Part shown: one piece after another, positions 1-25,751 of the stretch | Position numbering within the stretch: the stretch's first letter is position 1 | Layout: every line of letters begins with the position of its first letter | DNA from: a virus | Length of the DNA stretch: 25,751 nt | Virus record (IMG/VR): IMGVR_UViG_3300035698_017088 | Coordinates: 1 to 25,751 of that record | Reading direction: 5' to 3' (one strand) | The notes under the pieces: model-generated | Told to the model about the DNA's origin: nothing | Seen by the model: the letters and a program-made list of their open reading frames with translations, nothing else | Databases searched by the model: none | Program-made: the position numbers and the translations under genes

Positions 1-166
1 AACACGATGTCAAATTTCATGACGCGACGTTCAATCAAAACGATCATGACGCGCTCGAAGGGTCGCAACGGAGGACCTCAATCATGATCAATATTGATGC
101 GATTTTGATTGAACACAGAACGGAGATTGAACGATGAAAATAAATGAGGGGCCCGACACATAATAA

Positions 167-192
167 AATGTGACAATCAAATGTGACAATCA
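167..192. repeat. 13-bp tandem direct repeat
   Basis: The unit AATGTGACAATCA occurs twice back to back (167-179 and 180-192). It lies in the non-coding leader. Role unknown; it could be a protein-binding site. Confidence 0.8.
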
Positions 193-254
193 AAGGCCGT
201 CATTTGTCGTGTGGGTTGCATGGATATTTGACGGTTTTTTTGATGTCATTGTAA

Positions 255-270
255 TTGCAATTAATTATCA
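255..270. promoter_or_regulatory. Isolated copy of the terS repeat motif, possible operator
   Basis: TTGCAATTAATTATCA here matches 15 of 16 bases with 696-711, inside the third repeat of the following gene. It also closely matches 624-639 in the first repeat. It sits four bases before a TTGACA hexamer, so a protein bound here could affect transcription of the packaging genes. The match is visible in the sequence; the regulatory role is inferred. Confidence 0.4.
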
Positions 271-273
271 GTA

Positions 274-304
274 TTGACATGAGTTTGCATCGTCGTGTTA
301 CGAT
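274..304 (+). promoter_or_regulatory. Candidate sigma70-type promoter for the late operon
   Basis: TTGACA at 274-279 is a perfect -35 hexamer. The best -10 partner is TACGAT at 299-304 (4 of 6), with a long 19-bp spacer, so the match is weak overall. Its position about 30 bases before the first late gene is suitable. A phage-specific promoter is equally possible. Confidence 0.3.
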
Positions 305-331
305 TGAGCATCAACAGATTGAGCGAGATTG

Positions 332-955
332 ATGGCGGCAGTTCGACATAACGCGATGAGATTGCAACGCACGAGGGATGCAATCAGGGTCACGCGGCTC
401 GTAAAACGTTTGCAATCGCATGTGTTTGCGGGTACGCCTTTGTCACGATCACAGATTGCGTCAATCAAATTGTTGCTCGATAAATCGTTGCCCAATCTTG
501 AGAGCGTGACAATCGACGCACATGTGGGGGTGCAATACGTCAATCCCGCCCCCCCCCGTCCGTCGTCATTCGATGAGTGGATCGAACGTAAAAACATATT
601 GATCGACGTGACGGGGCCCAGTCTTGCAATTGATAATCATTCGCAGTTGGGCCCCTCAACTGAAACTGATAATCATTCGCAGTTGGGGCCCGGCCTTGCA
701 ATTAATAATCATTCGCAGTTGGGGGGCCCGTGTGAGAATGAGAATCATTCGCAAGTGGGCCGGGGGGCCTCAACTGCAACTGATAATCATTCGCAAGCCC
801 CTACCCCCACTGCAACTGATTCTCATTCGCAGGAGATCGACCCGGCACTAGGGGGGTACTGGACGCGTACTACGTACTCACAGAATTTTTGGGGCTTAAC
901 TCCTCAATCTCGTAACCGACTGAAAAGGCTCGCTAACCAAAGGAGAAACCCGTGA
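332..955 (+). CDS. terS: Probable terminase small subunit with internal 12-residue repeats
   Basis: The small terminase recognises phage DNA and recruits the large subunit to start packaging. Residues about 15-65 show the compact pattern I associate with podovirus small subunits: basic helix, then LSRSQIASIKLLLDKSLPNLESV. The gene lies just upstream of the large terminase, where a small subunit is expected. From about residue 98 to 170 the protein is six copies of a 12-residue unit (one stretched to 14) built on DNHSQ, followed by a basic C-terminus. The repeats are unusual for this family. I chose ATG 332 over the TTG just before it; no strong ribosome site is visible for either. The stop overlaps the next start by 4 bases (GTGA). 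Alternative: an unrelated DNA-binding protein at the pac site. Confidence 0.6.
   Translation: MAAVRHNAMRLQRTRDAIRVTRLVKRLQSHVFAGTPLSRSQIASIKLLLDKSLPNLESVTIDAHVGVQYVNPAPPRPSSFDEWIERKNILIDVTGPSLAIDNHSQLGPSTETDNHSQLGPGLAINNHSQLGGPCENENHSQVGRGASTATDNHSQAPTPTATDSHSQEIDPALGGYWTRTTYSQNFWGLTPQSRNRLKRLANQRRNP
622..840. repeat. Six-copy 36-bp repeat array with dyad core
   Basis: The core TGATAATCATTCGCAGTTGG begins at 631, 667, 703, 739, 781 and 817. Spacings are 36, 36, 36, 42 and 36, so the terS frame is kept. Copies 1 and 2 match the core fully; copies 3 to 6 differ at a few bases. TGATAATCA is itself a dyad, and with flanking TGCAA/TTCGCA it forms a 21-bp near-palindrome in copies 1 and 5. Copies 1 to 4 are each followed by a G-rich or GGGCCC block. 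The His and Ser codons of the encoded NHSQ motif (or its SHSQ variant) are CAT TCG in every copy. Confidence 0.9.
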
Positions 956-1242
956 ACGACCAAAGCCGCCAGGACTTTTCCCGAACCCAGGCCTATGAGC
1001 TGGCCAAGGGATTTCTCCATGGGTTTAATATGCAGCCCGTGCAGCTGCAGCCCCTATCTACCAATGCGGCCTCCAGAAACGAAAACGAAAACGAAAACGA
1101 ACCCGTTGATAATACTTTCCTGTCTGCTTCCCGTGTAGCCGACAGTATCACGACTCAGGAGCTAAAGAATATCTCCCGGGTACAGTTTTACATACTTGTC
1201 CTAACCAGGACTTCCCGTGCACTTGAAAAGGAACTATTATGA
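952..1242 (+). CDS. Small hypothetical protein with (Asn-Glu)4 tract
   Basis: A 96-residue protein that I do not recognise. It starts at GTG 952, six bases after a clear AGGAG (941-945), and overlaps the terS stop by 4 bases. The reading is soluble, without a signal peptide or membrane span. Residues 43-50 are four Asn-Glu pairs encoded by four perfect AACGAA hexamers (1078-1101). These are followed by a PVDNTF motif that recurs as PTDNTF in the next gene. The C-terminal third is likely helical. Lying between the two terminase genes, it may be a packaging accessory, but nothing in the sequence proves this. Confidence 0.65.
   Translation: MNDQSRQDFSRTQAYELAKGFLHGFNMQPVQLQPLSTNAASRNENENENEPVDNTFLSASRVADSITTQELKNISRVQFYILVLTRTSRALEKELL
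1078..1101. repeat. AACGAA hexanucleotide repeat, four copies
   Basis: Four perfect in-frame copies of AACGAA encode alternating Asn-Glu inside the 96-residue protein. A tract like this can change copy number by slippage without breaking the frame. Confidence 0.9.
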
Positions 1243-1478
1243 CCAACGAGGAAGCCAGATCTATCCGTCCCTGCCTGAAGTCTTTCCCAAAGGAACTGGC
1301 CGTGAACCAGCTCTGGGTCCATAGGAAGACCGGGGGATTATATATTATTTCCGAATTGGCCTATCTCGAAGCTGATGCTACCCGGGTCGTTATATATACC
1401 CAGTACCCCGCCCACAACCAGCCAACTGATAATACTTTCCCAAACTGGACTCCCAAGCTATCGGAGGTAACTGACTAG
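1239..1478 (+). CDS. Small protein, DUF1653-like
   Basis: A 79-residue protein starting at ATG 1239, which overlaps the previous stop as ATGA. AAAAGGA just upstream serves as ribosome site. Residues about 23-75 read as a short beta-rich domain (QLWVHRKTGGLYIISELAYL, then VVIYTQYP and a late Trp-Thr-Pro). This resembles the DUF1653 pattern of HyKGglY, vvY and a terminal W-x-R-P. I rate that match as suggestive only. The function of DUF1653 is not established. Its place directly before the large terminase suggests co-expression with packaging genes. The segment around PTDNTF is encoded by DNA that repeats 14 bases of the previous gene exactly. Confidence 0.6.
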   Translation: MTNEEARSIRPCLKSFPKELAVNQLWVHRKTGGLYIISELAYLEADATRVVIYTQYPAHNQPTDNTFPNWTPKLSEVTD

Positions 1479-1480
1479 TC

Positions 1481-2977
1481 ATGGCAATGTGGGCTCCCCA
1501 ACCCGGACCTCAATCATTAGCGATTGATACTGCGGGCTTTGTAGATGAACTGCTGTATGGCGGGGCTCGGGGTGGGGGCAAGTCTGATTATCTCCTGGGT
1601 GACTATCAACAAGAAGTGGGTGAAGGCTATGGCGATGCTTGGCGTGGAATACTGTTCCGGAAATCATATCCGGAGCTTGAAGAAATCATTATTAGGGCCA
1701 AACAGCTCTTTCCTGAAATCGGTGGTGTGTACGGTGAGTCTTCCAAGACCTGGACATTTCCTAAAGGTGAAACTCTCCGACTCCGTCAGTTGGAAAGAGA
1801 CTCCGACGCCGACAAGTACATGGGACACCAGTACTCCTGGATCGGATGGGACGAGCTCGGCAATTGGTCCAGTCTCTATGCATATAACAAACTGCGTGCC
1901 TGTCTGCGAAGCGCTGCTGGTATCCCAACCCTTAGGATCAGAAGTTCAGCAAATCCTGGCGGACCGGGTCACACGTCAGTTAAAGAAGAGTTTATCTCGG
2001 CTAACCCTGGAGGCTACGAGCGTGTTCTTGACGAAGAAACCGGGATGTACCGGATGTACATACCCTCCAAGGTCACAGACAATAAGATCTTGCTTGATAA
2101 CGACCCCAACTACGTAAAGCGGCTGAGGGGTGTTGGCTCAGAGGCACTTGTTAAAGCTTGGCTCGATGGTGACTGGGATGTAGTCGAAGGTGCCTTCTTC
2201 GATTGCTGGAACCACAATATGGTACTTCGGCCGTTCCCCATACCTGAGCACTGGCCCCGTATTCGATCACTTGACTGGGGCTCTGCTGCACCTTTCAGTG
2301 TGGGCTGGTGGGCCGTTGCCACAGAAGACTACATCATCACCGAGGATGGCGGCTTTGGTCGATACATACCGAAGGGCGCCATGGTCCGATACCGGGAATG
2401 GTACGGCGTAAGGATCAGCAGAGCTAGGAGGCCCGTACCTAACCAAGGTCTACGACTTGATGCAAGCCAAGTAGCCAAGGGTATTAAGCGACTCGAGAAA
2501 GAGGATCGTAAGCGTCACAATACATTCGGGGCCGCTGATTACGCGGTGGCTGACCCTGCAATATTTAGTAACCATAACGGCCCGAGTATTGGTGAGGTCT
2601 TTGCGACTAACGGCGTACTATTCGCACCGGCCGATAATGACCGAATGCCCGGCTGGAACCAGATGAGAAGCCGGATGATGGGTGACGATGCAGGTGTTCC
2701 CATGATCTACTGCTTCAGTACCTGCGCCCATTCAATTAGAACCATACCATCACTTCAGCATGATAAGACAAAAGCCGAGGACCTAGATACAGACGGCGAG
2801 GATCACGCTGGCGATGAGTGGCGGTATGCTTGCATGTCTCGACCTTGGTCAAGGGGCACTGCCATCAAGAAGGCCACTTACCACAGCGGTACAACTAATA
2901 CCTCGACTAACACCACCGGTGAAACTTGGAACCAGATGATGGCCCGCATTGGCCGAAGAAGGAAACGTCGTAGATGA
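1481..2977 (+). CDS. terL: Terminase large subunit (packaging ATPase-nuclease)
   Basis: This is the motor that pumps DNA through the portal and cuts concatemers. The Walker A loop is GGARGGGKS at residues 27-35. The Walker B strand is YSWIGWDEL with catalytic D124-E125. The C-terminal RNase H-like nuclease shows its acidic cluster: D265 in LDWG, D358 in ADPAIF, and D441/D445 in EDHAGDEWRY. The length of 498 residues is normal. ATG 1481 lies 13 bases after a GGAGG; a second ATG at 1487 is an alternative start. The stop overlaps the portal start by four bases. I infer a headful-type enzyme from the family resemblance, not from a visible cut site. Confidence 0.95.
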   Translation: MAMWAPQPGPQSLAIDTAGFVDELLYGGARGGGKSDYLLGDYQQEVGEGYGDAWRGILFRKSYPELEEIIIRAKQLFPEIGGVYGESSKTWTFPKGETLRLRQLERDSDADKYMGHQYSWIGWDELGNWSSLYAYNKLRACLRSAAGIPTLRIRSSANPGGPGHTSVKEEFISANPGGYERVLDEETGMYRMYIPSKVTDNKILLDNDPNYVKRLRGVGSEALVKAWLDGDWDVVEGAFFDCWNHNMVLRPFPIPEHWPRIRSLDWGSAAPFSVGWWAVATEDYIITEDGGFGRYIPKGAMVRYREWYGVRISRARRPVPNQGLRLDASQVAKGIKRLEKEDRKRHNTFGAADYAVADPAIFSNHNGPSIGEVFATNGVLFAPADNDRMPGWNQMRSRMMGDDAGVPMIYCFSTCAHSIRTIPSLQHDKTKAEDLDTDGEDHAGDEWRYACMSRPWSRGTAIKKATYHSGTTNTSTNTTGETWNQMMARIGRRRKRRR

Positions 2978-5121
2978 CTGACATCTCAACAGATAGTAGC
3001 TTTGATGACACCGACGACCTCGGCACAGGCGGATCAGCACTTGCCCAGCAATGGAGAATGGCACTGGAGCTGGCTAACAAGGCCGAGAAGAGTTGGCGCA
3101 AGAGTGCTCGTGATATCGTCAGGGTCTTTGAAGGCTACTCGGCCAGTATCGACCAGGGCGACACAGAGCTGAATGAGTTTAGTCTTGATTTCAACATCCT
3201 GTGGTCTAACACTAACATCCTAAGCCCCGCGCTGTTCCAAGGCGAACCCCGACCCGACGTTCGGCGCCGGTTTAGGGATGAAGACCCCCTTGCTTCAGAA
3301 GTTGCAGAAGTATTGGAACGAGCATTAGGCTATACGTTGGATGCCTATGATTATGAGGAGGAAATTAGGGCAGCTATCCATGACTATCTGCTGACAGGTC
3401 GAGGTGTCTACCGTATGCGGTTTAAGGAGACCGTAGATACAGACCCTATCACCGTCGAAGTATATAAGACCGATGACGGCCAATTTGAAGATGATATGGG
3501 TGCAATGGTTGACCCTGAAGATGTAGAGGAGACCAATGGTCGCTTCTACTTTGATACAGGCGAAGACCGCGAGGAGCTGATTGAGCAATGTGCTTACATC
3601 GAGCACGTTAACTGGGATTATTATCGACAGAGCCCAGCCCGCAAGTGGTCTAAGGTAAGATGGGTAGCATACCGACATGACTTCTCCAAGTCTGACTTCA
3701 TCGAAGAATTCACGGAGTCGTTAGCTGACCTTGTTAACTTTACCGACAGCCTGTCAGAAGATGATGAACAGGATATGTTTACTGCTGAAGAGCGAGGCGC
3801 CCTATCCAGTGAGTTTAATCAAACGATTGTTTGGGAGATATGGGATAAGGCCACTAAGACCGTGATCTGGTACTCTGGCCACCTGAACGACCGAGTGCTA
3901 CGTGTGGATGATGATCCGATGGAGCTGGAGGGTTTCTTTCCCCAGCCGCCTCCGATCATGGCAGTCCGTAGTAGTACGGGTGTACCAATCCCCGAGTACC
4001 TGCTCTATAGAAACCAAGCAGAAGAGCTTGATCTGGTAACTCAGCGTATTCGACGGATAACGGATCAGATGAGGGTTAGAGGTATATATGACTCGACCAT
4101 ATCTGAGCTGGAAGGTCTGCTAGACGCTGAGGACGGTACTCTTGTCCCCTCAACCAGTTTCCAGATGTTAGTAGAGAAAGGCGGTCTAAAGAATGCGCTA
4201 CAGCTTATGCCATTGGAAGAATTCGGCAAGGCACTGGTGGTTCTATACAGTAATCGTGAGCAGATTAAGCAGACCATTTTCGAGATTACGGGAATGGCGG
4301 ATATCATGCGAGGAGCAAGCAAGGCAACTGAAACTGCCACTGCCCAGAACATCAAGACGCAATTTGGCACCCTTCGTCTTGGGGATCGTCAGCGCACTAT
4401 TAATCGCTGGCTTCGTGATGGCATCAGGTTAAAGGCCGAGATTATTGCTGAGCAGTTTGATTATGACATACTCAGTAAGATTACTGGTAAGCCTATCTCA
4501 GGTGAGATGGAGTCACTGCTAAACTCAGATAGCCTTCGACTTTATAAGCTCGATATCGAGACCGACAGCACCTTGATGGCTGATGAACAGGCCGAGCAGA
4601 AAGCTGTGACACAACTACTTAAGACTGTCATGGAATTTGTGACCGGCATGGTGCCGCTTATCCAAAGTGGGTTGTTTGATAAGGATACCGCAATCAGCCT
4701 ATTGCTCATGACCGTTAGGAGGTTCCGAGGTGCCCGGGAGGTAGAGGATGCTATCAATAAGCTTCAGGCTACTGAGCAGGGCGGTGCTGAAGGCCAGGCA
4801 CAAGAACAGCTGCAACAAGCGAGCCAGCAGATTGAACAGCTTACCATGCAGCTGCAACAAGCGAGCCAGCAGCTTGAGGATATGCAAGCCGCACTGGAAG
4901 ACAAGGGTAATGAAGAAGCTCGAGCTGAGCGAAAAATTAAGTTTGAGGAAGCTGAGTCTCGGGCTAAGATAAGTCGGGACAACAGGTCGGCTGATGAGGA
5001 AATCCGCCGAAAGAATGAAGAGCATTCAGCCAAGATGGCATTAGCTAGCAAGAAGACTAATGCGGAGATTAATAGGAAAGATAAGGAGAGTGAGGATGAT
5101 GATGACACCACTGATGAATGA
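2974..5121 (+). CDS. Portal protein
   Basis: The portal is the dodecameric ring at one capsid vertex through which DNA enters and leaves. The protein has 715 residues, in range for podovirus portals. It directly follows terL with an ATGA overlap and precedes the scaffold and coat genes. The N-terminal half carries helical segments and the pattern LSPALFQGEPRPDVRRRFRD, familiar from portals of this type (tentative family match). The central RNQAEELDLVTQRIRRITDQ helix resembles the portal stem region. Residues about 590-715 are a long Gln/Glu-rich coiled coil, like the barrel of P22-type portals, containing a 24-bp direct duplication. The C-terminus is very acidic (ESEDDDDTTDE). Confidence 0.9.
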   Translation: MTDISTDSSFDDTDDLGTGGSALAQQWRMALELANKAEKSWRKSARDIVRVFEGYSASIDQGDTELNEFSLDFNILWSNTNILSPALFQGEPRPDVRRRFRDEDPLASEVAEVLERALGYTLDAYDYEEEIRAAIHDYLLTGRGVYRMRFKETVDTDPITVEVYKTDDGQFEDDMGAMVDPEDVEETNGRFYFDTGEDREELIEQCAYIEHVNWDYYRQSPARKWSKVRWVAYRHDFSKSDFIEEFTESLADLVNFTDSLSEDDEQDMFTAEERGALSSEFNQTIVWEIWDKATKTVIWYSGHLNDRVLRVDDDPMELEGFFPQPPPIMAVRSSTGVPIPEYLLYRNQAEELDLVTQRIRRITDQMRVRGIYDSTISELEGLLDAEDGTLVPSTSFQMLVEKGGLKNALQLMPLEEFGKALVVLYSNREQIKQTIFEITGMADIMRGASKATETATAQNIKTQFGTLRLGDRQRTINRWLRDGIRLKAEIIAEQFDYDILSKITGKPISGEMESLLNSDSLRLYKLDIETDSTLMADEQAEQKAVTQLLKTVMEFVTGMVPLIQSGLFDKDTAISLLLMTVRRFRGAREVEDAINKLQATEQGGAEGQAQEQLQQASQQIEQLTMQLQQASQQLEDMQAALEDKGNEEARAERKIKFEEAESRAKISRDNRSADEEIRRKNEEHSAKMALASKKTNAEINRKDKESEDDDDTTDE
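4807..4872. repeat. 24-bp direct repeat inside portal coiled coil
   Basis: The same 24 bases, encoding QLQQASQQ, occur at 4807-4830 and 4849-4872 with a 42-bp period (14 residues, two heptads). This suggests a recent in-frame duplication in the portal coiled coil. Confidence 0.9.
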
Positions 5122-5377
5122 AGCTGAGTGGGATGCGCTGCCCACCAAAGCCGACGTATCACGACAGTCGTTGGATCAGTTAAGCCTTGAGCTTGACCCC
5201 GACAGGCTTACCAGGAAGCAGATGATGGCAGAGATTATGGAGGCAATGGCACTGCCGAAAGCCCCCTCCATACCTGATGCTCGTGAGCCATTGCCTGGCT
5301 ATCCCGATCAGCTGTCAGCCGGCGGTCGAGTGATGAGAGGCAACCTTCATTCAAGTCAATCCGGTCGACGCGGATAG
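5096..5377 (+). CDS. Small hypothetical protein after portal
   Basis: A 93-residue protein that I do not recognise. I chose ATG 5096, the first of three consecutive ATG codons, because AAGGAG (5083-5088) lies seven bases upstream. This start overlaps the portal end by 26 bases in another frame. The open frame extends further upstream, but only inside the portal gene. The sequence is polar, with a helical stretch rich in Met and Leu (LTRKQMMAEIMEAMALPKAP) and a loose C-terminus. There is no membrane span. Translational coupling with the portal suggests a head-assembly role, but this is position-based only. Confidence 0.6.
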   Translation: MMMTPLMNEAEWDALPTKADVSRQSLDQLSLELDPDRLTRKQMMAEIMEAMALPKAPSIPDAREPLPGYPDQLSAGGRVMRGNLHSSQSGRRG

Positions 5378-5434
5378 GTTGGGTTTTCACGGGACCCAAC
5401 CTGGGGCTGGTGAGCGCGAGCTGTCTCACCCCAG
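5377..5434 (+). terminator. Tandem stem-loops between head genes, terminator-like
   Basis: The first hairpin pairs GGTTGGGT (5377-5384) with ACCCAACC (5394-5401) around a 9-base loop. The second pairs GGTGAG (5409-5414) with CTCACC (5425-5430), extended by CTGG/CCAG across a bulge. Neither is followed by a T-run. They may be a weak terminator, an mRNA processing site or a stabiliser ahead of the scaffold and coat messages. Confidence 0.45.
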
Positions 5435-5474
5435 CATTGCTGCTCCCAGCCCTAAATTATAAGGAGAACATAAT

Positions 5475-5759
5475 ATGGCTACTCGAAGAAGATGGGTTAT
5501 GAGAAAAGGCGAATTGGTAGAGGTAGACTTGGATGCTCCTCGCCCTGCCCCTGTGTCACCCATGATTATGAAGGACACCCAGGATTACCTATCCCCGGTA
5601 ACCAATCAACTTGTAAGCGGTCGGTATCAGCGACGAGAAGACCTGGCGCGAACCGGTTGTCGAGAAGTTGACCCATCCGAGTCTGGCACCATAGGTCAAA
5701 TGAAGAACCCTGAGTTTGACAAGGTGCTGGACAAAATCATAGAGGTGAAGCATGACTGA
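5475..5759 (+). CDS. Conserved small head-region protein
   Basis: A 94-residue soluble protein with a strong ribosome site (AAGGAG, 5461-5466) eight bases before ATG 5475. It begins with a basic strand (TRRRWVMRKGELVEVDLD). A loop then leads into the motif QLVSGRYQRREDLARTGCREVDPSE. I recall similar CREVDP-type small proteins between portal and scaffold genes of other podoviruses, but no function is established. One Cys only, so it is not a zinc ribbon. It overlaps the scaffold start by 8 bases, so the two are probably co-translated. A role in capsid assembly is a guess from position. Confidence 0.75.
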   Translation: MATRRRWVMRKGELVEVDLDAPRPAPVSPMIMKDTQDYLSPVTNQLVSGRYQRREDLARTGCREVDPSESGTIGQMKNPEFDKVLDKIIEVKHD

Positions 5760-6846
5760 TACAACCCAAGAAGACACCGACCCGTTAAGCAATGAGTCGC
5801 TTACGGCTATCTTTGATGAGATTGAGTCGGATGAGATTACCGATGAAACTGATATTCAAGGCAGCGACGACGATGGCGAAGAAGCCGACGATGAAGCTGG
5901 CGAGGATGACGACGAGGACCTCGAAGACGACGACAGTCAAGATGATGACCTAGACGACGACGACGAGGATGATGAAACCGACGAGGAGGAAGACGACGAG
6001 GGCAGTCAAGATGATGATGTAGCCCAAGGTAAAGCCTACTGGTCGAAGGAAGCTAAGGCCGCCTATGACAAGCTCGATGACGCAGGTAAGGCTGCTGTTG
6101 ATCTGGTCAATAAGGCTGCTCAAGCCGACTACACCAAGAAGACCCAGGCACTTGCAGAGGAAAGGGTTAGCATCCAGCCCTACGTCCAGGTTCGCACTGC
6201 GTGGGGCGAGTACCTGAAGCAGTTAGGTCCGAACGTCACATTTGAGGCGGCGGCGGATACCCTGCTACGTGCAGAGTACGTGCTCCGAACAGGCACCGAG
6301 GAACAGAAGGTCAATGCTATCCAAAGCCTGTGCAAGGACTACAAGATTTCGATGCCCAGTAACTCTGAAGCAGACTCTGAGGAGGATGACGAGTACGCGG
6401 ACCCCGAAGTCAAAGCGCTGAAAGCCCAGCTCAACACTGTTACAAAAAAGCTGGATGACCTTACAAAGCAACAATCTGATGATCCTGCAGCCCAGCAACG
6501 GGCACAGGTGGCTCAGATTGTTGCTACCTTCCGGAATGCTGAGGTAGATGGAAAACCTGAGCACCCACATTTCGACAAGGTGTGGCCGGCAATGGTCAAA
6601 TTCATCAATGAGGGCAAAGTCGCAAGAGGCGACCTGAAAGGCGCATATAAAATGGCAGTGAAATCAGATACCAGTATCGAGAAGCCGGCGAGAAAGTCTG
6701 ATCGTCGGAAGAAGTCCAAGAAGGCCTCAGGTAATAATGTCAGGAGTAACCAGCGGCCGGGCAAGCTCGATGGTGGTGCACCGCCAGTTGACCCACTCAG
6801 TGATGACGCTCTCGGCAAACTCTATGACCTGGCTAACAAGAGCTAA
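5752..6846 (+). CDS. Scaffold protein with long acidic N-terminus
   Basis: A 364-residue protein directly before the coat gene, the normal place for the internal scaffold that shapes the procapsid. Residues about 25-92 are almost entirely Asp and Glu. The middle is helical and charged (KAAYDKLDDAGKAAVDLVNK and on), with probable coiled coil at about 219-250. The end has a basic patch (KSDRRKKSKK). Scaffolds of this type commonly have an acidic start, a helical middle and a basic coat-binding end. There are no catalytic motifs or membrane spans. I infer the function from position and composition, since scaffolds diverge too far for motif recognition. Confidence 0.8.
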   Translation: MTDTTQEDTDPLSNESLTAIFDEIESDEITDETDIQGSDDDGEEADDEAGEDDDEDLEDDDSQDDDLDDDDEDDETDEEEDDEGSQDDDVAQGKAYWSKEAKAAYDKLDDAGKAAVDLVNKAAQADYTKKTQALAEERVSIQPYVQVRTAWGEYLKQLGPNVTFEAAADTLLRAEYVLRTGTEEQKVNAIQSLCKDYKISMPSNSEADSEEDDEYADPEVKALKAQLNTVTKKLDDLTKQQSDDPAAQQRAQVAQIVATFRNAEVDGKPEHPHFDKVWPAMVKFINEGKVARGDLKGAYKMAVKSDTSIEKPARKSDRRKKSKKASGNNVRSNQRPGKLDGGAPPVDPLSDDALGKLYDLANKS

Positions 6847-6881
6847 ATCTTAACCCAAACATCATCAGGAGAAATGGCTAA

Positions 6882-7841
6882 ATGCCTAGCCCCAATTCAA
6901 CCTTTACGCAGATCGTATCCTCGACTCTGCGTCATCACCCAAACATGGTGTCGGACAATGTCTCTCACCATAATGCACTATGGCGCCGGCTGAAGGACCG
7001 CGGGAACATCAAGCTTGTTTCCGGTGGTTACGAAATTGTCGAGCCGCTCGAATATGCGGAGAACGCCACCTACCAGCGTTACTCTGGCTTCGAGATGCTG
7101 AACATCGGCGAGTCCGATATTCTGACGTCTGCCAAGTTCGACTGGAAGCAGTCGGCGGTGCATATCGTCAGTTCCGGTCTCGAACTTCGTCAGAACGCCG
7201 GCAAGGAACAGATTATCAGTCTGGCCAAGTCGAAGATGAAGAACGCCATGCGTACCATGGCGAACAACCTGTCGGTGGATATGTATTCCGACGGCACAGC
7301 TGACAGCTCCAAGCAGATGGGGGGTTTCCAGCTACTTCTGACCAACGCCGGCAGCGGCGTCGTGGGCGGTATCAACGCGACAACCTTCCCCTTCTGGGCC
7401 AACAGCTTTAAGGATGGGAACGGCGCCGACGCAACCACCATCGGTGATCGTATGCGAGAACTGTGGCTGCTCTGTCAGCGACAGGGGGACGTTACCGACT
7501 TCATCGTATCATCGACTGAGCTCTATACGCTGTACTGGAACGGCTTGACCGACCTCCAGCGTTACACCTCGCGCGATGAGGTAGCCGGGGATGGATTTGC
7601 CAGCGGGCTGAAGTTCAACACCGCCGACATCTTCCATGACAGCTCGGAGTCTGGTATCGCCGCCAACACTATGTACTTCCTTAACACGGAGTACGTCAAG
7701 CTGGTCATCCACAAGGATGCCAACCTGTCGGTGTTGTCGGAGAAGGCGCCGGTCAATCAGGATGGCGTTGCTATTCCGATCATCTTCCAGGGCAATCTTG
7801 CCATCTCGAACCGCGCTCGTCAGGGCGTTTTGTTCGACTAA
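6882..7841 (+). CDS. Major capsid (coat) protein
   Basis: A 319-residue protein following the scaffold, with AGGAG (6867-6871) ten bases before the ATG. Features agree with coat proteins of podoviruses of this kind: an early segment SDNVSHHNALWRRLKDRG, a spine-helix-like stretch with MKNAMRTMANNLSVDMYSDG at about 115-140, then GGFQLLL and a beta-rich C-terminal half ending NRARQGVLFD. The HK97 fold is assumed from family knowledge. Third codon positions are richer in C and G than in neighbouring genes, as expected of a very highly expressed gene. The next gene is likely the capsid decoration protein. Confidence 0.9.
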   Translation: MPSPNSTFTQIVSSTLRHHPNMVSDNVSHHNALWRRLKDRGNIKLVSGGYEIVEPLEYAENATYQRYSGFEMLNIGESDILTSAKFDWKQSAVHIVSSGLELRQNAGKEQIISLAKSKMKNAMRTMANNLSVDMYSDGTADSSKQMGGFQLLLTNAGSGVVGGINATTFPFWANSFKDGNGADATTIGDRMRELWLLCQRQGDVTDFIVSSTELYTLYWNGLTDLQRYTSRDEVAGDGFASGLKFNTADIFHDSSESGIAANTMYFLNTEYVKLVIHKDANLSVLSEKAPVNQDGVAIPIIFQGNLAISNRARQGVLFD

Positions 7842-7872
7842 CATCTGACTTGACGAAAGGAAGACCAATACT

Positions 7873-8334
7873 ATGTTTGTAGCTGGTGCAAGACTTGCTC
7901 AGGTGGACACCACGCCGGCGTTTCGGCTGGGTTCGCTTTTCATGGACTACGACGGCAAAATCTACAAGTATCTGCAGTACAAGGAGGGTACTGCTGCTAC
8001 CGACGGCGTTGCCGGTGAAGTTGCTTACTACCTGGCCGGACTAGCTGATGCCTATCAGTGCACATCCGACCTCTCCGATGGTGATACCACGCCGCTTGGC
8101 GCCGGTGTCCTTCAGAACACTATGTCTGAAGCCGAGTATGGCTGGTTCCAGATCAAGGGCTTGGCTACACTCTCCATCGGACTCACAGCTGGTGCTGACG
8201 GCAACGCCCTGACTCCGACTGGTGCCGCGGATGGTACACTCGACGTGGTGGTTACCACCGTTGCGCTCTGTCACATCTGTGCCTTTGCGGTGGACGCGGA
8301 CGCAAAGGTTATTGCCTGCGATTTCCTGTTCTAG
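7873..8334 (+). CDS. Probable capsid decoration (cement) protein
   Basis: A 153-residue, Gly/Ala/Thr-rich and strongly beta protein placed just after the coat gene. A ribosome site AAAGGAAG lies ahead of ATG 7873. Motifs such as LGSLFMDYDGKIYKYLQY, YGWFQIKGLATLSIG and GADGNALTPTGAADGTLDV resemble the small beta-barrel decoration or head-fibre-base proteins (DUF2190-like in style) of many phages. Codon use resembles the coat gene, which fits a protein made in similar copy number. A stem-loop follows 19 bases after the stop. It could also be another minor virion protein. Confidence 0.7.
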   Translation: MFVAGARLAQVDTTPAFRLGSLFMDYDGKIYKYLQYKEGTAATDGVAGEVAYYLAGLADAYQCTSDLSDGDTTPLGAGVLQNTMSEAEYGWFQIKGLATLSIGLTAGADGNALTPTGAADGTLDVVVTTVALCHICAFAVDADAKVIACDFLF

Positions 8335-8353
8335 CCATCAACTACCAGAGCTA

Positions 8354-8377
8354 GGGGGGCGCCTAATCTCGCCCCCC
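8354..8377 (+). terminator. GC-rich stem-loop after coat/decoration genes
   Basis: GGGGGGCG (8354-8361) pairs perfectly with CGCCCCCC (8370-8377) around an 8-base loop. There is no T-run afterwards, and the next gene starts 20 bases on. It probably acts as a partial terminator or 3' RNA stabiliser, giving more coat/decoration mRNA than downstream tail mRNA. Confidence 0.6.
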
Positions 8378-8396
8378 ACTCTAACTGGAGGATATA

Positions 8397-9218
8397 ATGC
8401 TTATTAAGTTTTTCATGAAGGATGTGAGAGATGAGACCGCATCGGCAAAACAAGGCCACCCTGTTTTTGAGCAACAGGAATGGATCCATATCATCGTCGA
8501 TGACCGGAACGAACTCGAACGTCAAGTTACTGAGAAGGATCGCACCCGTACCGACTTCCTGCCCTACTACCAGGCATTTAAAGCTGGCCTGGAACCGCCG
8601 ACGGTCGGGTTGCCCCTGAAGGAATGGCCACTAATTACCCGGACTGAGATTGAACTGCTCAACCGCCACCACGTTCGATCCGTTGAAGACCTATCATCGG
8701 CGCCGGATAATATCATCCAGCGATGTGGTGCTACCTACAAAGGCCTTAGGGCTAGGGCCCAAAGCTATCTGAAGGAGTCCCAGAATAAAGGCATCACCAT
8801 TGAGGAGATACTCGGGTTAAAGCGTGAGTTGTCACATCTGGAAATCCGTAACCAGTCATTGGTCACCCAGGTAAATTCGCTGGTTCAGCTTCTTCGGCAG
8901 AACAGCATTGATGCCGACCACCTACTGATCGAGGAAGCTTTGCCGGAGGAGGAGAACTTCAGTGAAGTGTCTGATGCCGGGATACCGGGTGCATCAAGTC
9001 TGCTGGCAGACGATGGTGGTGAAATACCGGAAGAAGTATCACCCCGTAAGAGACCGAGAAGTCGAAAGAAACCAAGAGCAGCTCCGCCGAAGAAAGCGAC
9101 GAGTCCGAAAAAGCCGAAAGCAGAAGTCCAAAGTAGTGTACCAATAACTGACACCGAGACTGATGCTGAAGCCAAGGCCCGTCGTGCCCGAGAACGCCGA
9201 CAGAAACGAAAGGCATAA
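8397..9218 (+). CDS. Helix-hairpin-helix-like head protein with basic tail
   Basis: A 273-residue protein. Residues about 50-75 contain YYQAFKAGLEPPTVGLPLKEWP. They lead into a helix-hairpin-helix-like segment at about 80-125 (TRTEIELLNRHHVRSVEDLS, then a second helix pair ending AQSYLKE). Residues about 132-170 are coiled coil. The C-terminal third is Lys/Arg/Pro-rich with acidic interruptions. I recall proteins with this FKAG-x-E-P-P / EWP-LLT layout after the coat gene in other podoviruses; they have no assigned biochemical role. The HhH and basic tail suggest contact with packaged DNA or the capsid interior. GGAG (8387-8390) lies six bases before ATG 8397. Confidence 0.75.
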   Translation: MLIKFFMKDVRDETASAKQGHPVFEQQEWIHIIVDDRNELERQVTEKDRTRTDFLPYYQAFKAGLEPPTVGLPLKEWPLITRTEIELLNRHHVRSVEDLSSAPDNIIQRCGATYKGLRARAQSYLKESQNKGITIEEILGLKRELSHLEIRNQSLVTQVNSLVQLLRQNSIDADHLLIEEALPEEENFSEVSDAGIPGASSLLADDGGEIPEEVSPRKRPRSRKKPRAAPPKKATSPKKPKAEVQSSVPITDTETDAEAKARRARERRQKRKA

Positions 9219-9225
9219 ACTAATT

Positions 9226-9939
9226 ATGGCTACACTCCTATCCATTGTCCAGACGGTCTCTCAGGAAGTGAATGTCCCAGAGCCCTCATTTGTGGTTACC
9301 AACAAAGATCAAATTGCGAAACAGATGCTAGCGATGGTCAACAGGATGGGGGTGGCTTTAACGGATAGGTATCAGTGGCAGATACTTACCGAAGAATGCA
9401 ACCACACCAGCATTGCTGCTGAGTCCCAAGGCGTTATCACGACTATAGCAAGCGGGGGGTTTTTGGAGATACTCAATGAAACCTTTTGGAACCGAAGTCA
9501 GAGCTCTAAAATAAAGGGTCCGTTAAATGCAGAAGCCTGGCAGGCTGAGAAGGGCCGTAGGATTTCGAGTGGTATTAATAGCTTTTATCGCATTAGAGGT
9601 AACAACCTTCTTATTACTCCCACGATGGCTGCAGGTGATGAGTTGTACTTTGAGTATCTCTCAGAAAATTGGGCCCAGAGCTCAGATGGACTTACCAATA
9701 AGTCATCGTTTACGGCAGATACTGACGTGCCTCGACTCGATACTGCCTTAATCGAATTAGGTGCAAAATGGCTATACCTTAAAGCTAAGGGGTTGCCCTA
9801 TGCTGAAGACTTTAGGCTGTTTGAAACCCGATTAGCCAAACGGATGGCTGCCGACGGCGGTAAGCCAAGACTTTCAATGGGCGGTAGAGGTCGACGACGA
9901 CCTGCCGCAAACCTACCTGATGGGAGCTGGGTCCTCTAA
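9226..9939 (+). CDS. Head-tail connector / adaptor (P22 gp4-like candidate)
   Basis: A 237-residue protein starting at ATG 9226, seven bases after the preceding stop. The open frame extends upstream to 9163, but only inside the previous gene. The N-terminal half is helical (TVSQEVNVPEPSFVVTNKDQ, then IAKQMLAMVNRMGVAL). It is followed by a central beta region with YRIRGNNLLITPTMAAGDEL and a helix with LIELGAKWLYLKAKGLPYAE. This helix-beta-helix order and its place between head and tail genes match adaptor proteins that dock under the portal. The basic C-terminus (GGRGRRRPAANL) is notable. Its stop overlaps the next start by one base (TAATG). Confidence 0.7.
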   Translation: MATLLSIVQTVSQEVNVPEPSFVVTNKDQIAKQMLAMVNRMGVALTDRYQWQILTEECNHTSIAAESQGVITTIASGGFLEILNETFWNRSQSSKIKGPLNAEAWQAEKGRRISSGINSFYRIRGNNLLITPTMAAGDELYFEYLSENWAQSSDGLTNKSSFTADTDVPRLDTALIELGAKWLYLKAKGLPYAEDFRLFETRLAKRMAADGGKPRLSMGGRGRRRPAANLPDGSWVL

Positions 9940-21605: not shown

Positions 21606-21854
21606 TCAGTCCTTCGACTTCAGCTTCTTCACGACGGCGTCCAGGCCCTTCTTGTTTTTGAAGTCCCAGGCACGACCTTCCTTGGTCATGCCGGCGGCAC
21701 GGAGTTTCTGACGGGCAACTGATGCATCAACGTCGAGTGCTTCGGCCAGTTCGGCAACGCCGTAGTCGGGCTTCTCGATAATCGGGGGCGTCGGCTTCTT
21801 CTTGGCAGCCTTCTCGGTCGCTTCATCCTTCTTCGTCTTGGACCTCTTAGCCAT
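21606..21854 (-). CDS. Lysine-rich small HTH-type DNA-binding protein
   Basis: An 82-residue basic protein. Residues 1-28 are a Lys/Ala-rich disordered tail. Residues about 30-82 look like a small winged-helix or HTH domain: GVAELAEALDVDASVARQKL, then a turn and RAWDFKNKKGLDAVVKKLK. AAAGGAG lies eight bases before the ATG and inside the helicase 3' end; the two genes overlap by 8 bases. The codons are strongly C/G-ending, like the coat gene and unlike the adjoining helicase, suggesting high expression. It may coat or organise phage DNA, or act as a regulator. I do not recognise a named family. Confidence 0.8.
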   Translation of the reverse strand: MAKRSKTKKDEATEKAAKKKPTPPIIEKPDYGVAELAEALDVDASVARQKLRAAGMTKEGRAWDFKNKKGLDAVVKKLKSKD

Positions 21855-23235
21855 TTGAGCTTCTCCTTTGGTGTAGGTTGTGAATGATCTTCTCTGATCG
21901 AGTACGCTTCTTTCTTATACCTAACAGCCTGTCCTCGTCAATAGTGTTTTCGGCAATTATATGAACAATGAGAGTTTTCTTACGTTGACCTGTTCGATGC
22001 AATCGCTTGTAGTTCTGATTGTATAGCCGCCAACCAATTGGCAATGAATAGAATATGCCAAGTGACGACGCAAACAAATCAATGCCAATGCCCTTTTGAA
22101 CCTGGAGAACAACTACCTGTGGATTAGGTGTATCTTGAAAGGCCTCCCATACAGCGCCGGTATCTTTAGTTCGACCATCAATCACCCCGACAGTTCGACC
22201 TTGACTCTCCATCGCTTGTTTAATCTTGTCAATTTCATCTATGAATGCTGCGAAGATCACCACCTTCTTTTTCTTCGGCACGTCCCTCATATAGTCCATC
22301 AAGTAATATAGTTTAGTCTGCTCAAGTTCAAGCGTATGCTCTTCATCATCGAGTGGAAGGTGACCACCCGTAATTTGCTGAAGTCTAAGTAGTCTGGTCA
22401 GGTCTATCTGGGCGGTTGACCCATGGCCTTGCCATTGAGCGTAGAACTCATCCTCCATCTGCCTATAGGCTTTCTTAGCCTTGCCCTCGAGCTTTACATA
22501 CAGGTCAACAAAGGTAACCGGTGGTATACCCAACTCAGATAGTTTCTCATCCCTGATGCGAAAGACCCATGGTCCGAATAGTTCATTGATGAGCCGCTGA
22601 CCCCTCTTCAGTATTACCTTTACATAGCCCTCGTAGCCGGTAGGGATAGTATAACGCTTAAGGAATGACCGATAGTTATTGCCAAGTAATCCCGACTTGA
22701 TAAAGTCTGCCAATGCCCATAAATCTAGCTCATCCCGTTCAATAGGTGTAGCAGTCAGTGCGATGTTAATGTGGGACCTAGTGCCCACCAATCGAATACA
22801 TTCAGACTGATGAGAATAAGGGTTACCTATTCGGTGTGCCTCATCGACTATAACCACGTCCCAGTCAATCGCTGCTATATTGTCATATCGACGCCAGCTT
22901 AGCTCGTGATTGAGCGCTAGGATACGTAAACCCTTAGTATCATGCCATTGCGATAAATCCAGTCGATCCAGCTCATCCTTACCGCACCAGACACGGTGAC
23001 TTTTACTCAAGTGAAGTCGTGCCTGTCGCCGCCAGGTATCAATCACAACCTTGGGGCACCACACTAGTACGTTAATATATTCTGCTTCTTTGCACAGCTC
23101 TAGTATGGCGGCCAGGCTTGTAATTGTCTTTCCAGTCCCCGCTGGCATGAATAAGGCTCCGCCGCCCATTTTTACCAGGTGTCGTACGGCTTTCTTTTGG
23201 AACCGATATAGCTTTGACCTTAATCGAACTGGCAT
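21847..23235 (-). CDS. SNF2-type DEAH helicase/translocase
   Basis: A 462-residue superfamily 2 ATPase of the SNF2/phage helicase kind. Motifs in order: Q-like RFQKKAV near residue 11, Walker A PAGTGKT (31-37, K36), LVWCPKVVIDTW (motif Ia), DEAH (131-134), LTATP (motif III), and the C-terminal RecA lobe with VVIFAAFIDEID and QVQKGIGIDLFASS. RLHRTGQRKK follows as motif VI with the arginine finger. It should translocate on or remodel DNA during replication or recombination. The start at 23235 is supported by AGGAG seven bases upstream (23243-23247) and by the Q-motif. It overlaps the VRR-NUC gene by 164 bases out of frame. Confidence 0.93.
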   Translation of the reverse strand: MPVRLRSKLYRFQKKAVRHLVKMGGGALFMPAGTGKTITSLAAILELCKEAEYINVLVWCPKVVIDTWRRQARLHLSKSHRVWCGKDELDRLDLSQWHDTKGLRILALNHELSWRRYDNIAAIDWDVVIVDEAHRIGNPYSHQSECIRLVGTRSHINIALTATPIERDELDLWALADFIKSGLLGNNYRSFLKRYTIPTGYEGYVKVILKRGQRLINELFGPWVFRIRDEKLSELGIPPVTFVDLYVKLEGKAKKAYRQMEDEFYAQWQGHGSTAQIDLTRLLRLQQITGGHLPLDDEEHTLELEQTKLYYLMDYMRDVPKKKKVVIFAAFIDEIDKIKQAMESQGRTVGVIDGRTKDTGAVWEAFQDTPNPQVVVLQVQKGIGIDLFASSLGIFYSLPIGWRLYNQNYKRLHRTGQRKKTLIVHIIAENTIDEDRLLGIRKKRTRSEKIIHNLHQRRSSNG

Positions 23236-23587
23236 CTGAGTACTCCTGAAATCTTTGGTGAAAACCCGAATAGCTTTTACGGAAAGCCTTCTTCACTCGA
23301 GCTACTGAGTGTTCCGGTGAGGTTGATATGAACGCAATACCACCAGCCTCCCGTATATGGCGCATAGTCCTGAGCTGTAGCGGAGTAGCCCATCGCTTAG
23401 CGTTAGGTGCCTTAACCTCAATGGCTACATAAAGCCCGCCAATACAGAAAAGTAAATCAGGTATGCCGGGTCGCTGGAACTTGCCGCCATGTACTTTAAA
23501 CCCAAAGATACCTAGCTTTTTAAATTCTTGAGTAACCGCTCGGTGGATGCTTCTTTGGACTGCTGTCTCTGGTTGTTTCTTAGCCAT
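23072..23587 (-). CDS. VRR-NUC domain nuclease
   Basis: A 171-residue protein whose first 110 residues form a VRR-NUC (PD-D/E-x-K) nuclease. Early E7 and Q11 precede RPGIPDLL with D44, then YVAIEVK with E57-x-K59, and TPLQLRTMRHIREAGG with Q71. VRR-NUC proteins act on branched DNA, and stand-alone versions are often encoded next to phage SNF2-type helicases, as here. Residues about 118-171 are encoded by the same DNA as the helicase N-terminus in another frame and look like low-complexity basic sequence. A weak AAAGG ribosome site precedes the ATG. The start overlaps the 3' end of the upstream gene by 76 bases. Confidence 0.88.
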   Translation of the reverse strand: MAKKQPETAVQRSIHRAVTQEFKKLGIFGFKVHGGKFQRPGIPDLLFCIGGLYVAIEVKAPNAKRWATPLQLRTMRHIREAGGIAFISTSPEHSVARVKKAFRKSYSGFHQRFQEYSDASSIKVKAISVPKESRTTPGKNGRRSLIHASGDWKDNYKPGRHTRAVQRSRIY

Positions 23588-24051: not shown

Positions 24052-24978
24052 TCAGTCTTCTTCGATCAGCTCTGCTTCTTCCAGTGCCGCCAGAACTTTC
24101 TTGCGGTTGGACTTCAGGGACTTACCCAGCTTCAGCTCGAGTTCAGCCTCTTCCACGACTTCGGCGAGTTTGTCGTTGTCCATCTTCTTGACGTCTGCCG
24201 CCGAATAGGTTTCGTCGTCATCGTCATCGTCGTCATCGTCTTCGTCATCATCGTCATCGTCGTCATCGTCGTCATCTTCGTCATCATCGTCATCATCGTC
24301 ATCATCGTCATCCAGCTCGCTCAGAGCTTCGATGACTGCAGCACGCTTGTCCTTGATGGACTTGAAATCATCAAGGTCGATATCCAGGTCATGATCGTCC
24401 ACGACCACTTCGAGTGCCGGCGCCTTCATCTTCTGGATTTCAGCCTCAGTCGGAACATCTGCTTCATCATCGTCGTCTTCATCATCGTCGTCTTCATCTT
24501 CGTCGTCATCATCTTCGTCATCGTCGTCACCGCCATCATCGTCTTCATCGAGTTCAGAAGCTGGGAACACCGATACTACCTCGGTACGGGGTTCACCGTT
24601 CTGGTTCTCGCCGATGATTGTCACCATGCCGATTTCTTCCTCGGTCGCCATGATACTGTCCAGGTCGATTTCGGTCTTGGCTTTCTTCACCTTCATGCCG
24701 AGTGCAAGCATGAGTTCCATCAGCTTGAACAGGGCTTTGGGCGACAGACTGGTGTTAAAGAAAGTAGTAACACCTCCCTGTTCACCGCCGACAACTTCCA
24801 GGTTCCACTTGACATTGTGGAAACCGCTGGGTCCGGGTTTATCAGAGACTTCGAAACCAGTGAGCTTTGCACGGTATTCATCTGCCGGCAGTACCTTCCG
24901 GATTGTAACGTCACTGAAATCGACTGAGAACTTATTACCGCGTTTGCCTTCTGCGGCTTTTGACTGGGCTTTTGCCAT
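24052..24978 (-). CDS. SSB-like (DUF669-style) protein with acidic tracts and two SAP-like modules
   Basis: A 308-residue protein. Residues 1-141 resemble the DUF669-type single-strand-binding proteins made beside Sak4/AAA_24 ATPases: NKFSVDFSDV, GFHNVKWNLEVVGG, LFKLMELMLALGM, VTIIGENQNGEPRTEVVSVF. Residues 142-173 are nearly all Asp/Glu. Residues 175-222 and 257-305 look like two copies of a SAP/HeH-type helix-loop-helix (IQKMKAPALEVVV and VKKMDNDKLAEVV start them). Between these, 223-256 is almost pure Asp. ATG 24978 follows GAGGA by nine bases; the frame is open back to 25023, but only over the ATPase gene. Codons are biased to C/G endings, suggesting high expression. Start and ATPase end overlap by 44 bases. 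The ssDNA-binding role is inferred. Confidence 0.75.
   Translation of the reverse strand: MAKAQSKAAEGKRGNKFSVDFSDVTIRKVLPADEYRAKLTGFEVSDKPGPSGFHNVKWNLEVVGGEQGGVTTFFNTSLSPKALFKLMELMLALGMKVKKAKTEIDLDSIMATEEEIGMVTIIGENQNGEPRTEVVSVFPASELDEDDDGGDDDDEDDDDEDEDDDDEDDDDEADVPTEAEIQKMKAPALEVVVDDHDLDIDLDDFKSIKDKRAAVIEALSELDDDDDDDDDDDEDDDDDDDDDDDEDDDDDDDDDETYSAADVKKMDNDKLAEVVEEAELELKLGKSLKSNRKKVLAALEEAELIEED
24211..24312. repeat. Trinucleotide-rich poly-Asp coding tract
   Basis: On the minus strand this is a run of GAC/GAT codons, broken by a few GAA/GAG, encoding residues 223-256 of the SSB-like protein. A second such tract lies at 24463-24555. Such simple-sequence DNA is prone to length change in multiples of three. 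Confidence 0.9.
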
Positions 24979-25751
24979 TGGTAGTCTTCCTCTTCGGTTT
25001 TGCCCCAACCTGGGACGTTTCAATCAGAGCCATGATTTTTCCATAGCTCGGTTCCACCAGAACCTCGGGTAACTCAATGTGTTGAGGCTTTCTGATTTTG
25101 GTTTTGTAGTATGCATTAGGGCCAATGCGAAGGCAATACTGAGTTTGCCTCTTTCGCACAGTTTTTTTCCTAACCGTTGATTTAGTTACGGTCTCCCTGA
25201 TGAATGTATTCCCCACAATGCTCACAGCCCCCAACAATGTGGACTCAACTGAGGGCATTAACCGGGGCCCAACCTGGGGTGCAATAACGCCGGTGTTGGT
25301 TTCATCATCCTCGCCGGAGAATGTCCGGTCATGGGCAATGAAAACCACTGTGGCATGGATTTTATCGAAATCGGACATGGGGATAATGAACCGGCGCATT
25401 TCTCCACCAATGACGCCCCAATCGGCCTGGTAGATCTTCCCACGATTAGCCCCCAGATTAAACTCATCATAGGACTTACCCTTCTCCTCCATAACATGCT
25501 TCATGGCAAGGTCTTGAGCTTGGCTGACAGTATCGACTACAATGGTTTTAAACTGAGCCAGTTTCTTGTCGCCGGCAATCAACCCCCACATAACATTGAT
25601 TACATCCTGCCAGGTCTGAGCCCTGATGACGCTGGTGTCTTTTATATCCCGAACTGAGTCAGTACCCCGCTCGTTACAATCAATGAACAGGATGGGTTTA
25701 GGCCAGGTAGCTGCCAGCGTAGTCTTCCCGGAGCCGGCTGTTCCATAGATA
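24935..25751 (-). CDS. RecA-like ATPase, Sak4/AAA_24 type (partial, 5' end outside window)
   Basis: The reading frame continues to the window edge, so the start is missing. The first visible residues are IYGTAGSGKTTLAATWPKPI: a Walker A followed by ILFIDCNERGTDSVRD. FKTIVVDTVSQAQDLAM is the Walker B-like strand. Further on come HATVVFIAHDRTF, then a DETNTGVIAPQVGPRLMPSV segment typical of phage AAA_24/Sak4 recombinases. The C-terminus is basic (KRKTTNGKSPVKSRRR). Such ATPases promote single-strand annealing and work with a cognate SSB (established for Sak4 of phage HK620), which fits the SSB-like gene directly downstream. About 271 residues are visible. The gene ends 44 bases inside the next one. 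Confidence 0.88.
   Translation of the reverse strand, partial: IYGTAGSGKTTLAATWPKPILFIDCNERGTDSVRDIKDTSVIRAQTWQDVINVMWGLIAGDKKLAQFKTIVVDTVSQAQDLAMKHVMEEKGKSYDEFNLGANRGKIYQADWGVIGGEMRRFIIPMSDFDKIHATVVFIAHDRTFSGEDDETNTGVIAPQVGPRLMPSVESTLLGAVSIVGNTFIRETVTKSTVRKKTVRKRQTQYCLRIGPNAYYKTKIRKPQHIELPEVLVEPSYGKIMALIETSQVGAKPKRKTTNGKSPVKSRRRQTR

Follow-up and report, generated by a model that had tools for sequence, protein, structure and literature searches.

Why would a phage gene placed like a small terminase gene carry six near-identical copies of a near-palindromic motif inside its reading frame, and which protein would read them? The DNA that raises this question, called the window below, is a 25,751-bp virus fragment from IMG/VR with a terS-terL-portal-capsid module. 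A preliminary description, made from the letters of this DNA, had proposed that the copies form a packaging (pac) site bound by the small terminase subunit, TerS, and that their uniform codons hint at selection on the DNA or at a very recent duplication. Its account of the repeats themselves held: six cores, TGATAATCATTCGCA and close variants, span 631-831 at steps of 36, 36, 36, 42 and 36 bp (Table 1), and copies 1 and 5 do form the 21-bp near-palindrome that it described, with symmetry at 16 of the 20 positions in the arms. The sites are asymmetric, with TGATAAT as the left arm and ATTCGCA as the right arm, from which copies 3 and 6 deviate. Matches to the 15-mer with up to three mismatches numbered 12 in the window, as compared to 0.56 expected from dinucleotide shuffles, and 0 of 100 shuffles reached this count. 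Eleven of the 12 fell within 256-831 and ten within the array, where six copies can give ten matches because the near-palindromic 15-mer was scored on both strands. A weaker box upstream of terS is identical to copy 3 at 15 of 16 bases.

The linkers of the array have features of their own. Their palindrome GGGGCCC is found again at 148-154 in the non-coding upstream region (145-157 compared with 613-729), and the sequence around it, TGAGGGGCCCGAC, is complementary to 646-658 at 92%. The region upstream of terS also holds a tandem 13-bp repeat of 2.5 copies at 162-194, AATCAAATGTGAC. G-runs adjoining the boxes were seen in other phages as well (L023, L042 and L051).

Table 1. Predicted terminase-region genes and FUR-box-like sites of the window, with matches to the classical 19-bp Fur box.
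Feature	Position	Strand	Remarks
Weaker box, TGCAATTAATTATCA	256..270	+	non-coding region upstream of terS; repeat family D2
terS-like gene, 207-208 aa	332..955	+	ATG at 332 (TTG at 329 possible); ORF list and N-terminal homology
Conserved TerS core, residues 4-84 of P0001	338..580	+	BLASTP to L010 TerS
Six FUR-box-like sites and G+C-rich linkers (repeat block), in a lineage-specific C-terminal extension of TerS	613..834	+	
Box 1, TGATAATCATTCGCA	631..645	+	14/19
Box 2, TGATAATCATTCGCA	667..681	+	15/19
Box 3, TAATAATCATTCGCA	703..717	+	13/19
Box 4, TGAGAATCATTCGCA	739..753	+	15/19
Box 5, TGATAATCATTCGCA	781..795	+	14/19
Box 6, TGATTCTCATTCGCA	817..831	+	12/19; other strand 13/19; left arm degenerate
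Small ORF between terS and terL	952..1242	+	no family; half-box TGATAAT at 1107
Second small ORF between terS and terL	1239..1478	+	no family; half-box TGATAAT at 1427
Large terminase subunit (TerL)	1481..2977	+	phrog_979 1.1e-30, phrog_2 1.2e-29

The gene that holds the array is, by homology and position, a predicted small terminase gene, in agreement with the preliminary description. It matched no PHROG or Pfam model at threshold. Its N-terminus is 31% identical over 81 aa (E 1e-9) to the TerS of L010, and it also matches phiGT1 gp1, annotated as 'putative small terminase' (E 7e-3). The homologues in L010 (68-343), phiGT1 and RHph_Y1_10 each lie upstream of terL, and the annotation of phiGT1 gp1 states that its homologues are found consistently upstream of the large terminase gene. 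The TerS of L010 is 91 aa long, carries no array and ends about where the array of the window begins, which places the array in a C-terminal extension absent from L010. Queries with TerS and MCP and BLAST with the array returned no direct relative with the same in-frame array, and the nearest TerL relatives of the window were about 45% identical or less. By TerL, MW202489 (45%) came closest among phage records. A single box, TGAGAATGATTCGCA, precedes its terL module, at a site where an unnamed and perhaps spurious ORF (249-527) is annotated. The two small ORFs between terS and terL of the window share TGATAATACTTTCC (1107-1120 and 1427-1440), and their TGATAAT half-sites lie in the codon phase of the array (VDNTF and TDNTF).

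In principle, the repeat could be selected as protein. The TerS tail would then be a tandem peptide, (D/E)NHSQ, that arose by recent duplication, with the DNA motif as its by-product. The array is in frame, every spacing in it is a multiple of 3, which is often not so in the non-coding arrays of other phages, and the frame stays open to a stop codon that overlaps the GTG start (952) of the next ORF. The codons speak against a peptide origin. CAT TCG is used in 6 of 6 copies, while in 12 other genes of the window TCG makes up 12% of the Ser codons and CAT 46% of the His codons. With the box in the phase T GAT AAT CAT TCG CA, copies that share a residue at one of the four box codons also share the codon in 46 of 46 pairs. 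At the Gln codon, which has its third base immediately past the box, the codon is shared in 7 of 15 pairs. In box 4, the change of GAT to GAG alters the residue and yet keeps a valid box, since the resulting TGAGAAT is a left arm common in other phages. Together with the mostly non-coding location of the same motif elsewhere (see below), this makes a peptide-level explanation highly improbable. Thus, the array of the window appears to be a DNA element fitted into a reading frame, its codons following the box and not the peptide. Recent duplication adds to the uniformity and could explain part of it; the two contributions are not fully separable given the lack of close relatives. Of the two suggestions originally made for these codons, constraint on the DNA is therefore supported by the comparison of box and Gln codons, and duplication stands as a partial contributor.

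If the DNA is what matters, its resemblance to known operators may indicate the reader. The classical 19-bp Fur box is GATAATGATAATCATTATC (PMC7536154). The six copies match it at 12-15 of 19 positions (Table 1), a comparison to be read with the reservation that the Fur of the actual host may differ in specificity; the best sites upstream of E. coli fhuA, fepA-fes, fepB-entC and cirA reach 13-15 of 19. The weaker box at 256-270 had a score of 11.4 with a position weight matrix (PWM) of the array and matched the Fur box at 13 of 19 positions (at 257). This PWM was built from phage arrays and is partly circular, and the literature consensus for Fur served as the independent test. The resemblance could also be an accident of a lineage-specific repeat, as Fur boxes are degenerate and chance alone would give about 3.5 sites of at least 13/19 over the full window. 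However, the copies are six and clustered, and the motif recurs across collections, with an excess over a control pattern that is given below. We consider a chance likeness very improbable.

The same core is also found in cellular genomes. Across 84,980 bacterial and archaeal genomes, a search for AATCATTCGCA in pairs separated by 20-40 bases yielded 29 loci. Eleven of the 29 adjoin a gene for a TonB-dependent receptor (L069, L082 and L090), znuA (L076, L080, L081, L086, L088 and L092) or a fur-family gene (L089 and L091), all of which are typical targets of FUR-family regulators. At several of the other loci, the copies lie within ORFs or have neighbours without a link to metals; those within ORFs look like unrelated matches. 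On these sequence comparisons, the array motif is likely a FUR box of the 7-1-7 type, TGAKAAT-C-ATTCGCA. It has in common with the bacterial Fur box and its 7-1-7 heptamers the core, the inverted-repeat architecture, the degree of match and the occurrence of tandem copies. It differs from bacterial Fur operators in that it resides in a phage, in six copies, within coding sequence and without an evident promoter. A promoter scan of 1-1500 gave 4 matches in total, a count not clearly above the 2.1 expected by chance, among them a single weak one on the + strand, at 608-637, which ends in box 1. Because the six boxes lie inside terS without clear overlap with a promoter, we limit the claim to FUR-box-like binding sites and do not extend it to a regulated promoter.

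Similar boxes are widespread in phages. Paired ATTCGCA cores were present at 54 loci of IMG/VR, as compared to 1 for the reversed pattern; ATTCTCA cores were present at 120 loci or more, and perfect GATAATCATTATC pairs at 9. Grouping of the loci by the sequence around the array gave 22 clusters in a first set and, among the matches listed, 68 in a second. The array was not wholly inside an ORF of at least 100 aa in 18 of the 22 clusters and in 63 of the 68 (second set, among the matches listed), and at least three boxes were found in 16 of 22 and, again among the matches listed, 32 of 68. Arrays had up to 8 boxes, or 10 at a looser cut-off. Canonical boxes are exemplified by L199, L217, L024, L059 and L038, and read AAATGAGAATGATTCTCATTTG in L199 and AAATGATAATCATTATCA in L024 and L059. 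Coding repeats in L019, L035, L046/L054 and L061 look like unrelated DNA matches. Contig IMGVR_UViG_3300047095_000877 carries two separate arrays, of five and eight boxes (L128 and L184), and contig IMGVR_UViG_3300007965_000002 carries at least two separate box arrays or pairs (L025, L125 and L152). L016, L047 and L066 have a non-coding stretch in which overlapping boxes follow one another every 17 bp (GTGAATCATTCGCATTT...). A primase-helicase gene lies downstream in L016, L017 and L026.

Among isolated phages, BLAST with the whole array returned mostly single-box matches; a three-box consensus query worked better and returned 347 records, a number that includes weak matches and of which few were inspected. 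Arrays of near-perfect boxes are present in gene-free stretches of phi92 and of the T5-like phages DT57C, phiR2-01 and Erwinia KEY. The repeat stretches of these T5-like and phi92-like phages have the same boxes as the window but are non-coding, and their arms are of E. coli type, with ATTCTCA and ATTATCA besides ATTCGCA. The T5-like arrays adjoin DnaA-box-like repeats and TCGGATTTGCACA repeats. In the T5-like L096 (1400-1900), L097 and L099, the order is TCGGATTTGCACA repeats, Fur-box array and then DnaA-box-like TTATCCACA, in the terminal-repeat region. No array was present in Pam5 or in ICBM1, P12053L and CRP-4, which are isolated relatives of the L055-type phages.

In many of these phages the arrays are linked to the terminase genes, so that this part of the preliminary description was borne out beyond the window. 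A TerL gene was found in 17 of the 22 clusters and, among the matches listed, in 33 of the 68 of the second set, for which TerL was called with HMMs that we built and not with PHROGs. It lay within 3.2 kb of the array in 17 and 25 clusters, respectively (second set among the matches listed). The array was upstream of TerL in 14 of 17 (binomial p 0.013) and in 29 of 33 (1e-5; second set among the matches listed). The exceptions come mainly from one T7-like TerL lineage, in which the array follows TerL. In L042 and L013, the array is directly before terL, at about 200-250 bp; some other arrays stand between divergent modules, and those of the T5-like phages and phi92 are not directly before terminase genes. 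The array-linked TerLs, including that of the window, fall into at least seven groups at less than 30% identity.

These results bear on the proposal that the array is a pac site at which the TerS of the phage itself would initiate packaging. Packaging sites of terminase systems include P22 pac in gene 3, P1 pac in pacA and the R sites of lambda cosB. The array of the window, like these, consists of repeats in or beside the small terminase gene; it lies within terS and upstream of terL, and the arrays of other phages are likewise terminase-proximal. In contrast to those sites, its motif is common to at least seven dissimilar TerL lineages, to T5-like and phi92-like phages and to bacterial metal-uptake genes. 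The homologous TerS of L010 has no array, and L011, L012 and Pam5, whose TerLs are related, have no boxes in the sequence examined. A reader that serves unrelated terminases, T5-like and phi92-like phages and bacterial metal genes alike is expected to be a host protein that is itself conserved, either Fur or a near relative in the FUR family, and not TerS. Thus, TerS was rejected as first choice for the reader, and the proposed TerS-binding pac site, for which the Fur-box match also leaves little room, is improbable.

A related explanation gives host Fur, bound to an array at the packaging end, an architectural function comparable to that of IHF at lambda cosB, serving DNA packaging, protection of the end or entry. 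We know of no case in which Fur assists packaging. In the cobavirus lineage (L024, L052, L055 and L059), the gene near the array encodes 177-179 aa and belongs to phrog_8035. It is homologous to the ICBM1 gene at 39249-39740, the last leftward gene before the terminal repeat at 39992-40163, in a phage whose ends were mapped with PacBio reads (PMC6775973). From this synteny, we infer that the array of the cobavirus lineage lies at or near a genome end, which would suit an architectural role and a pac site alike. The array of phiR2-01 (9312-9391) is inside the annotated terminal repeat (1-9901), near its inner edge, as would be consistent with such a role in T5-like phages, and so would the array after TerL in the T7-like lineage. 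Yet it is only through the T5-like annotation that an array and mapped ends are seen together, and we regard an architectural function as very unlikely.

The boxes might instead be operators in the usual sense, at which host Fur would act as repressor or roadblock, so that iron status controls the terminase and late operon or divergent early genes. The upstream position of the arrays (14 of 17 clusters and, among the matches listed, 29 of 33), at times directly before TerL or between divergent modules, is in line with this, as is the weak box in the non-coding region before terS of the window. A precedent is CtrA, a host regulator known to control phage genes (PMC9437464). In the window, however, the six good boxes are some 300-500 bp inside the coding region, where no convincing + strand promoter was found, and neither the T5-like and phi92 arrays nor that of the T7-like lineage have the position expected of a terminase operator. 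Transcriptional control by Fur is thus an unlikely explanation, and it is, with the architectural one, kept alive by the strong positional bias of the arrays.

We tentatively favour a different use of the same operators, suggested by the sequence and arrangement of the boxes: six FUR-family operators fitted into the frame of the TerS tail may constitute a sink for Fur on the multiplying DNA of the phage. Host Fur loaded with ferrous iron would bind the sites, and as phage DNA replicates, the array would pull Fur off host promoters. Late in infection, the loss of Fur from these promoters would derepress iron uptake and those surface receptors that Fur regulates, from which we infer a benefit to the phage. 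The sink is favoured because the boxes are several, their spacing is irregular, they have no constant relation to promoters, and those of the window are in a gene. If the motif is indeed a FUR box, the chances that a sink is its main function are about even. A fixed position on the terminase side exceeds what a pure sink needs, yet this region is also one of the main stretches that compact phage genomes keep free of genes. In the Fur titration assay (FURTA), a Fur-controlled promoter is relieved of repression when a Fur box is supplied on a multicopy plasmid (PMC3145626). The sink would likewise place many extra Fur-box copies in the cell, with derepression of Fur promoters as the expected result; unlike the plasmid of this laboratory assay, the array would do so as a natural function of a phage.

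Bacterial physiology depends centrally on iron regulation, and the receptors of many phages are themselves under iron control. If arrays of Fur sites are carried by phages of unrelated lineages, infection may rewire the iron response of the host, and phage growth may be iron-dependent by way of the DNA only, with no phage protein involved. This would also suggest a function for stretches whose sole annotation in well-known phages, T5-like and phi92-like, is 'repeat_region'. The recurrence of Fur-site arrays at the packaging end points to routine capture or exploitation of the host's iron regulator by phages. A still broader generalization, which we consider unlikely, would make host-Fur arrays at this end of the genome a device of phages in general. 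Besides depleting Fur, the arrays would mark or gate the genome end, tying terminase expression, packaging or DNA entry to the iron status of the host across many unrelated lineages.

Fur boxes are known, as is the use of the host regulator CtrA by phages (PMC9437464). In a limited search of open-licence PMC literature, we found no report of Fur boxes in phage genomes, as decoys or beside terminase genes, of phage Fur-box arrays and their terminase-proximal position, or of an in-frame version in terS. The CtrA sites of alphaproteobacterial phages are similar in being sites on phage DNA for a conserved host regulator (PMC9437464). The arrays described here differ from them in the regulator and in having up to 8-10 boxes at one place, often close to the terminase genes.

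Near the opposite end of the window, three predicted genes were recorded in passing. An SNF2-type helicase (21847-23235; Pfam SNF2-rel_dom, 2e-27) is adjoined by what by eye is a VRR-NUC-like nuclease (23072-23587, - strand). The predicted protein of 24052-25023 (- strand) contains very long Asp/Glu runs, with repeats at 24212-24312 and 24462-24550.
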